A stretch of 49,756 nucleotides of DNA, from the NCBI GenBank assembly GCA_028278265.1, contig JANQET010000365.1, forward strand, positions 1 through 49,756, read 5' to 3'. Of the stretch, positions 21,810 to 32,118 are shown one piece after another. This DNA is from Myxococcota bacterium. GTDB lineage: Bacteria > Myxococcota_A > Polyangia > JAAYKL01. The notes under the pieces were generated by a model, which worked only from the letters and a program-made list of their open reading frames with translations, had not been told where the DNA came from and searched no databases. Position 1 is the first letter of the stretch. The number at the start of each line of letters is the position of its first letter. The position numbers were made by a program, and so were the translations under genes.

Positions 21810-23093
21810 CTACTGAACTTCGCCGAAGTAGAGATCGATGCTATCTTCTTTGCCCGCTGCGAGCAGATCGTATATTCCGTCATTGTTCCAATCGACAAAG
21901 GATGGCTTTGCGTCGAGATATACCGAGACGATGGAACCATCGGTTTGCTCCAATCGATCCCGCCGAACCAGGGATGGTGAAGTGGGCGTACCGACATTCT
22001 CGAAAAAGATAAAGCCGGCTTTGGAGTGCCACCCCTCGCCGAGCACCAAATCCAAGGTACCGTTTCGATCCAAATCGACGACTTGAATGCAGGTTCTTTC
22101 CAGACCCTGGTCGATGGGTTGACCATCGCTGGTTTTCAGGGGCTGCTCATCTTCGAAACTGTAGTTCTGGGGCGTTCCCTTGTTAATGTACAACTTGACC
22201 AGACTGCCCCCGTTGTCACTGGCGTACTCGCCGCTGATCAGGATATCGAGGAGTCCGTCGCCGTTCCAGTCCGCCACCGCAGGAGCGGCGTTGGTGTGTG
22301 TTTTTACAAATGCTCCTGACGCTGTCTTCAACCGTACGGTTGCATCGAGTGTGCCGTCATCACTTCTCTTGTAGAAGTTGACCCAGCCTTCCCGTTCGCC
22401 AATGATGAAATCGTTTATGCTGTCACCGTTCAAATCCGCAGACTGAGGATTTGTCGCGCCTGCACATCACGTGCTGGTCAACTGGATATCCTGTCCGGCC
22501 GCTTCCAGATATTCAAACGAGCCAAACTCCGGAGCCACATCGGTCGCTATATTCTTGTAAAATCTGACCTTCCCTCTAAACTCCCCTACGATGAGGTCTT
22601 TTTTTCCATCTTTATCCCAATCGGTGACCAGCATGGTGGGCCAGCTGATATCATCGATCGGCTGTCCGTTGCTTTCAATTTTGGTTTGAAAGACGAACTT
22701 GGGCATTCCCTCGATCGGATCGGGACCGGTGTCCGTGTCCGAATCCGAATCGGCATCAGCATCTGAATCGGTATCGGCGTCGCTGTCCGAATCCGAGTCC
22801 GAATCGGTGTCCGCATCCCCGTCACTGTCCGAGTCCGAATCCGCATCGCTGTCCGCGTCCGAGTCCGAATCGGCGTCCGAATCTGCATCTGCATCCGCAT
22901 CGCCGTCACTGTCGCCGTCCCCGTCGCCATCACCGTCGCCGTCCGCATCCCCGTCACTGTCGCCATCCGCATCACCGCCGGAGCCATCATCATCCCTGTT
23001 GTTGCCGGTACACGCGGTAAAGCCCAACAGCCAAATCGCACACAACCAGATGAAGATCCCTCCGGGTCGCCGTCCGTGTTTCGTATGTCTCAT
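21810..23093 (-). CDS. FG-GAP/VCBS-repeat lipoprotein with Asp-rich linker and in-frame TGA (candidate selenoprotein)
   Basis: ORFs 22467-23093 and 21810-22433 share one frame separated only by TGA at 22467-22469; VCBS-like '[26 protein letters not shown]' before and '[25 protein letters not shown]' after. Confidence 0.7.
22431..22453 (-). promoter_or_regulatory. bacterial SECIS-like hairpin downstream of the UGA
   Basis: minus strand CAAATCC-U-CA-GUC-UG-C-GGAUUUG: perfect 7-bp stem, apical GU, unpaired U; stem starts 13 nt after the UGA. Confidence 0.6.
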
Positions 23094-31161: not shown

Positions 31162-32118
31162 CTAGAATAGCCAGCTGAGCAGCCGGCTACCGAGACGCTC
31201 AGAGCGATGGCTCGGCAATTGGCAGGAGCAGGCACCGCTCTCGCCGTCAATACCTCCGTCATCATCGTTGTCATCATCGTCGTCATCCCCATCCCCATCG
31301 CTGTCGCTATCCGCATCGCTATCCGCATCGCTATCCGCGTCACTATCACCATCGCCATCACCGTCACTGTCACTGTCCGCGTCACTGTCGCTATCCGAAT
31401 CACTATCGCCGTCCGCGTCACTGTCGCTATCCGAATCACTATCACTGTCCGCGTCACTGTCGCTATCCGAATCACTATCACTGTCCGAATCACTGTCGCC
31501 ATCTGCATCACTGTCGCTGTCGCTGTCCGCATCCCCTCCATTGGATTCGTAGTAGATGCGCATCGCCATGTCGTTGCCCAGGAAATCGCCGGTAGTGGCG
31601 CTTAAATCGTTCTTGAACAGGCAGCGGTTGGTGCCGTTGGTCACTTGAATGGAGATATTGCCTTGGGGGTTCTCGTACTGCAATTCAAAGATCAGATTGC
31701 TTGTCCCGTCATATGCAAATCCGGTCTCGAACTCCCAGCCAAACCATTCGCCAGCAAAGGTCGGTATCGCCATCGTGTCGACGGAATAGACCAATTGGGG
31801 TGTGTTTCCGCTGTAATTGTCCTCAAAATTGGTACCGAGACTCGTTTTGTTCGAATGACTAACAAAAAATTTGAAATTCGGAAACGCCTCGTCGTTCGTG
31901 TCGCCCGAGGCCAAAAACTGAAAGGCGGTTAACGTTGCGGGACCAGGCATTTCTTCCGAGGTTACAAAACCTTGAAACCTACCGGCGGTGCCTCACGTGC
32001 ACAGGGGCTTATTGATGCCCGGCCACCAATTCTCCCCAATGTCGACATAGTCTTGAGCGGTTGCTGAAAATGACAACGGCAACGATAAAACAATTGTAAA
32101 AAACAGCAGCTTTTTCAT
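31162..32118 (-). CDS. secreted protein with N-terminal CTU motif (in-frame TGA at codon 42), candidate selenoprotein with Asp-rich C-terminal linker
   Basis: ATG 32118 with RBS AAGGAGAGTTGA; '[41 protein letters not shown][TGA][34 protein letters not shown]...'; frame open to 31162. Confidence 0.72.
31956..31985 (-). promoter_or_regulatory. bacterial SECIS-like hairpin downstream of the UGA
   Basis: minus strand CCG-gu-AGGUU-U-CAA-GGUU-UUG-U-AACCU-CGG; apical loop GGUU, unpaired U three bp below the loop; loop starts 21 nt after the UGA (31993-31995). Confidence 0.68.

Follow-up and report, generated by a model that had tools for sequence, protein, structure and literature searches.

An in-frame TGA at codon 42 of a minus-strand open reading frame (ORF) in a Myxococcota bacterium is probably decoded as selenocysteine (Sec), within an exported and probably surface-anchored β-sandwich protein. 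Sec is the best reading of this codon because the genome carries the Sec machinery and uses Sec heavily in exported proteins, homology runs across the TGA, and no ORF of the same class was found broken by TAG or TAA. The ORF lies in a window of 49,756 nucleotides, which is the whole stretch of DNA analyzed (contig JANQET010000365.1). An earlier note on this DNA had proposed Sec at codon 42 chiefly because of a downstream hairpin described as a near-textbook SECIS. The proposal stands as the best reading, but its main argument proves to be the weakest part of the case, since the hairpin as drawn is not the dominant fold in most sequence contexts.

The read-through frame

The read-through ORF has the following features.

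31162..32118, minus strand: read-through ORF of 318 codons, with TGA as codon 42 (sequence and frame reading)
32053..32118, minus strand: classical signal peptide (sequence; cleavage site predicted from an AxA motif)
31993..31995, minus strand: in-frame TGA, the proposed Sec codon of a Cys40-Thr-Sec42 motif (sequence; inside one homologous domain)
31537..32052, minus strand: jelly-roll β-sandwich domain broken by the TGA (profile, alignment, and AlphaFold2)
31246..31539, minus strand: linker rich in Asp, Ser, Gly, and Ala, limits approximate (sequence)
31162..31245, minus strand: C-terminal tail with CSC, a possible surface anchor judging from similar tails (sequence)

The frame starts at ATG 32118 (minus strand), just downstream from a ribosome-binding site rated as good (AAGGAGAG), and residues 4–16 of the signal peptide have a mean hydropathy of 2.26. 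The start, its ribosome-binding site, and the signal peptide are as first described. The signal peptide is followed by the β-sandwich (∼170 residues), the acidic linker, and the Cys-containing tail, which is similar to that of a protein at another locus (L115, GSCGCSAVGHRRGVLNRLLGGRS). The residues directly 5′ of the TGA at 31995-31993 (minus strand) read ...NKPLCT, codon 41 being the last before it. Downstream, the frame remains open as had been claimed (about 277 codons), with 276 sense codons before it ends at TAG. Codon-usage scores are positive both 5′ and 3′ of the TGA and exceed those of the other two frames on the same strand. Cys40 lies two residues before codon 42; positions within three residues of a Cys make up 7% of the domain.

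A standard ORF finder reports only the part after the TGA (31162-31950, beginning at ATG 31950, 262 codons), as the earlier note had pointed out. This call is what would be expected if the gene truly starts after the TGA, with the upstream frame translated separately or not at all. However, both the signal peptide and the ribosome-binding site are located upstream of the TGA, and a protein started at ATG 31950 would have neither a signal peptide nor the domain's first core strand.

Domain homology across the TGA

Domain homology is strong evidence against a downstream start. A profile seeded with the read-through protein itself, and built via two weak but genuine matches (L031 and L030), retrieved 41 loci, mostly Bacteroidota surface proteins that carry repeats of the domain. 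This profile, given its seed, covers most of the jelly-roll domain of loci L203-L243, and the read-through protein shares with that repeat a conserved Pro, a conserved Gln, and an FxYDGTxN segment. The Pro is located four residues before the TGA and is present in 88 of 93 alignment rows, whereas the Gln follows the TGA by seven residues and is present in 83 of 93. Because these residues are conserved on either side of the TGA, the codons on both sides specify one folded unit. Homology that begins before the TGA contradicts a gene start after it, and we regard that explanation as very improbable.

The domain is predicted to be a β-sandwich by AlphaFold2 with 66 sequences (pLDDT 73.6, pTM 0.77). 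This run superseded a poor model made from the single sequence (pLDDT 52). The residue encoded by codon 42 is positioned in the loop that precedes the first core strand, which comprises model residues 23-30. Foldseek searches of the PDB gave generic β-sandwich matches, none at E ≤ 0.001. When the read-through protein was compared with Pfam and NCBIfam, the acidic linker alone matched (SD-repeat stretches of MSCRAMM models). Tested members of the L203-L243 repeat, which is common in Bacteroidota surface proteins, likewise have no Pfam model over its cut-off.

The alignment column that corresponds to codon 42 is variable, with mostly Tyr, Ser, Phe, or Asn and, in a few rows (L237, L221), Trp. 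Cys is found there in 0 of the 92 other rows, and no member of L203-L243 has a stop at this position. Homologs with Cys or Sec at the UGA position are widely used to predict selenoproteins but do not define them. Their absence lowers confidence in Sec. The earlier note had named homologs with neither Cys nor Sec at codon 42 and no conserved CTx motif as grounds for rejection. These grounds apply only by half: neither residue is present, but all the homologs in the alignment are distant (about 16–28% identity). Searches of 96 relatives and of 318 class genomes revealed no ortholog or close homolog, and a peptide-pattern search of an 85,462-species collection gave no close homolog; conservation of the TGA therefore cannot be demonstrated. 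Nearly all weak matches in the class genomes looked like chance on re-inspection, with L031 and L030 surviving. Two matched loci contain a TGA (L038 and L040), but it is not aligned with codon 42.

The main rival to Sec is a recent nonsense mutation. The gene, intact apart from the TGA, would then be a young pseudogene with a hairpin formed by chance. A variable and often aromatic residue at the aligned position favors such an origin, as Trp is only one step from TGA. In contrast, the remaining frame is intact through the tail.

The hairpin downstream from the TGA

In the SECIS element of E. coli fdhF, a small G/U loop tops three base pairs, below which one U is unpaired. The RNA that follows the TGA of the read-through ORF can be drawn with the same three elements. 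Unlike the fdhF element, however, this fold is rivaled by a more stable one. The two hairpins are as follows.

31956..31985, minus strand: hairpin as drawn, with a CCG/CGG foot and GGUU loop (−7.6 kcal/mol)
31954..31977, minus strand: competing hairpin UUUC-A-AGGUU[UUGU]AACCU-C-GGAA, with its loop at +26 (folding and pair probabilities)

In the drawn fold (AGGUU-U-CAA[GGUU]UUG-U-AACCU), the loop begins about 21–22 nt 3′ of the TGA. The sequence AGGUU is present twice, and its second copy pairs with AACCU to form the competing hairpin. When segments from +10 to +45, +10 to +55, and +1 to +60 were folded, the core pairs of the competing hairpin had probabilities of 0.74–1.0, compared with 0–0.18 for the drawn fold, which is dominant only in a short segment from +7 to +40 (P 0.77). 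Between +10 and +48, the consensus SECIS fold has P ≥ 0.9 in 12 of 12 comparators versus 0.005 here.

The published bacterial SECIS (bSECIS) model specifies a loop of 3–9 nt, a stem of 4–16 bp, and G in one of the first two loop positions (PMC13188914), at 16–37 nt from the UGA and with an energy of ≤ −7.5 kcal/mol (PMC13188914, Fig. 2). The drawn fold falls only just within these limits, whereas the competitor that dominates most segments has its G third in the loop (UUGU) and is outside the model. The 61-nt fold does not exceed shuffled sequences in stability (z −0.13), and some G-loop hairpin of equal stability follows 12% of genomic TGAs. More specific features are less common. Of 61,780 genomic TGAs, 1.0% are followed at suitable spacing by a hairpin with a GGU or GUU loop and 8 or more pairs. 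When the peptide is recoded synonymously, such a hairpin arises in 0.7% (at least 8 bp) to 2.8% (at least 7 bp) of the recodings. An Rfam scan of the region returned no SECIS family.

The SECIS evidence for the codon-42 TGA is suggestive but falls short of textbook quality. The description “near-textbook” was overstated for a hairpin of −7.6 kcal/mol that is mostly outcompeted, although a hairpin can be drawn and its loop and spacing fit both the bSECIS pattern and the loops observed elsewhere in the genome. That the SECIS fold is not dominant favors a nonsense mutation. The GGU-loop hairpin and the nearby Cys, each uncommon by chance, argue against it.

Sec machinery and TGA use in the genome

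The genome (7.67 Mb in 516 contigs) encodes two each of selA, selB, selD, and tRNA-Sec over family cut-offs, and ARAGORN identifies both tRNA-Sec genes, assigning each the anticodon TCA. The proposed refutation by absence of selA, selB, selC, and selD consequently failed, as the full set is present. Sec-containing SelD proteins with Sec near the N terminus are known, and one selD of this genome likewise contains an in-frame TGA close to that end. The duplicate gene sets are on contigs C30, C341, C421, C441, C59, and C47 (L002, L003, L010, L011, L018-L021). They reflect either two systems, which perhaps differ in SECIS preference, or a mixed bin. Tetranucleotide composition prefers one cluster and so gives no support to a mixed bin, although a mixed bin may still account for the two Sec gene sets.

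To assess TGA use more broadly, 1.96 Mb (∼26% of the genome) was scanned for frames that appear coding both before and after a TGA. Beyond the codon-42 case, at least 12 such interrupted frames were recovered in which a SECIS-like hairpin follows the TGA. They include SelD, several exported thioredoxin (Trx)-like proteins in which the motif is mostly U-x-x-C, and a kelch protein with C-U. Also recovered were a double-cubane reductase, a substrate-binding protein that resembles SsuA/SaoX, a protein related to deiodinases, and others. The hairpin loops (GUU, AGUU, GGU, GGUG, GGA, GGG, and similar) start 17–30 nt after the TGA. A stable hairpin follows 15 of 58 coding-flanked TGAs, versus 3 of 51 TAGs and 3 of 43 TAAs.

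Stops within domains are also restricted to TGA. Among 123 acidic-linker ORFs, mid-domain breaks occur at TGA alone, in about 11 of the 32 TGA-ended ORFs as judged by inspection, and there are none at TAG (60 ORFs) or TAA (31 ORFs). Sec use is supported by this restriction and by the excess of hairpins after TGA. With 0 of 91 TAG- or TAA-ended ORFs broken within a domain, the prior probability of a nonsense TGA is low. Pseudogenes do exist in the genome, one being a kelch copy on contig C175 with both TGA and TAG inside, and this keeps a nonsense origin of the codon-42 TGA in consideration as an unlikely explanation. Less likely still is a one-base assembly or sequencing error, such as TGG or TGC read as TGA. 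The fragmented assembly (516 contigs) makes such errors conceivable, but equivalent TAG or TAA errors are missing from the acidic-linker class, and an error would leave the hairpin and the nearby Cys unexplained.

The exported, acidic-linker Trx-like family (L201, L191, L079, L166, L118, L153, L171; C109, C156, C161, C215) has TGA in 8 of its 8 copies in this genome, some with two, and again in three related genomes of the same family (G001, G005, G010). This recurrence rules out sequencing error for the Trx-like proteins. Like them, the read-through ORF has a signal sequence, an Asp/Ser/Gly linker, and a TGA followed by a hairpin. In the Trx-like proteins, the Trx-like domain comes after the linker, the motif is mostly U-x-x-C, and the hairpins are dominant; in the read-through ORF, by contrast, the linker follows the domain, which is of a non-Trx type. 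Two TGA-interrupted acidic-linker proteins, the read-through ORF and L113, have no dominant consensus hairpin, and a nonsense codon would hide there. L113:2838 (minus strand) has a mid-gene TGA without a good hairpin, which may be a nonsense codon.

Several other frames from the scan have distinct features. L086:2471 (minus strand) has a mid-gene TGA without a consensus SECIS, followed by a hairpin of very high stability. Its loop (UUGAGU) has G as the third base, like the competing fold of the read-through ORF. L192:19523 (minus strand) encodes a small lipoprotein-like protein (LES-U-LTIEI) with a clean GGA-loop hairpin and no family match. The SsuA-like substrate-binding protein at L105:5223 (minus strand) carries U-D-P, which recalls the UxP of SaoX; its match to NF040735 is below the cut-off. 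The double-cubane-cluster reductase at L069:3745 (minus strand; NF040772 over cut-off) has its TGA in an N-terminal extension (SGSG-U-APAE), with a strong hairpin.

Exported selenoproteins seem unusually numerous in this genome. The ∼15 cases found in one-quarter of it would scale, by rough extrapolation, to ∼50–60, close to the reported maxima of 57 and 63 (PMC13188914).

Relation to known selenoproteins and possible function

If codon 42 encodes Sec, then SelB carrying Sec-tRNA would bind the hairpin ∼12–37 nt past the UGA and insert Sec. In the exported protein, Cys40 and Sec42 would then form a Cys-x-Sec pair in the loop that leads into the first core strand, most likely as an extracytoplasmic thiol/selenol redox site or a soft-metal site. 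The acidic linker and tail probably display the protein at the surface, and the jelly roll is probably a binding domain for some ligand or partner. A Cys/Sec pair is suggested by the Cys two residues before the codon and by the adjacent Cys in kelch and FG-GAP cases. Cys is absent from the aligned position in all relatives. Sec, if present, was probably gained recently in this gene and is not ancestral to the domain family.

A 2026 review lists 119 bacterial selenoprotein families and subfamilies (PMC13188914, Table 1), and a jelly-roll surface domain of this type is absent among them. The earlier note suggested that the protein may be an undescribed selenoprotein; if it contains Sec, it is outside the 119 families, and its domain has no Pfam match. 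Like the listed proteins, the read-through ORF has a UGA in frame, followed at typical spacing by a hairpin. Its genome has complete Sec machinery, and its Cys-x-Sec resembles the motif of several listed families. Unlike them, it has no Cys homolog at the Sec position, and its hairpin fit is borderline. Unverified selenoprotein candidates outside redox families were noted in an earlier study (PMC8318568). A search of the literature on Myxococcota selenoproteins gave nothing relevant.

Selenoproteins have mostly been found through Cys/Sec pairing in homologs. A Sec in a surface domain without a Cys counterpart, if real, would be missed by such methods, and would show that Sec can arise de novo in a protein without the thioredoxin fold.

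A second candidate in the window

The window contains another candidate selenoprotein.

21810-23093, minus strand: FG-GAP propeller candidate, with TGA 22469-22467 as codon 209

This candidate has a signal peptide, an acidic linker, and the propeller, and its TGA context is LTST-U-CAGATN. Its hairpin, CAAAUCC-U-CA[GUC]UG-C-GGAUUUG, is the minimum-energy fold and shares with that of the read-through ORF a 5′ U mismatch and CA/UG apical pairs. Sec is better supported for the FG-GAP candidate than for the read-through ORF. A literature search on FG-GAP selenoproteins yielded no match.

Together with a kelch protein (C-U, L107), the jelly-roll protein (C-x-U, codon 42) and the FG-GAP protein (U-C, 22469) constitute a proposed set of surface β proteins. 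We tentatively propose, at somewhat less than even confidence, that this lineage recruited Sec into surface β proteins that lack the thioredoxin fold, where Cys/Sec pairs with no Cys ancestor arose de novo and form redox or metal sites outside the cell, perhaps under relaxed SECIS rules via one of the two SelBs. This wider set is a more interesting lead than the codon-42 case by itself.

The kelch protein of the set (L107:19642, plus strand) is exported and reads EKC-U-SGG, with a strong GGUG-loop hairpin. A copy that is 42% identical, on contig C348, also has a TGA inside.
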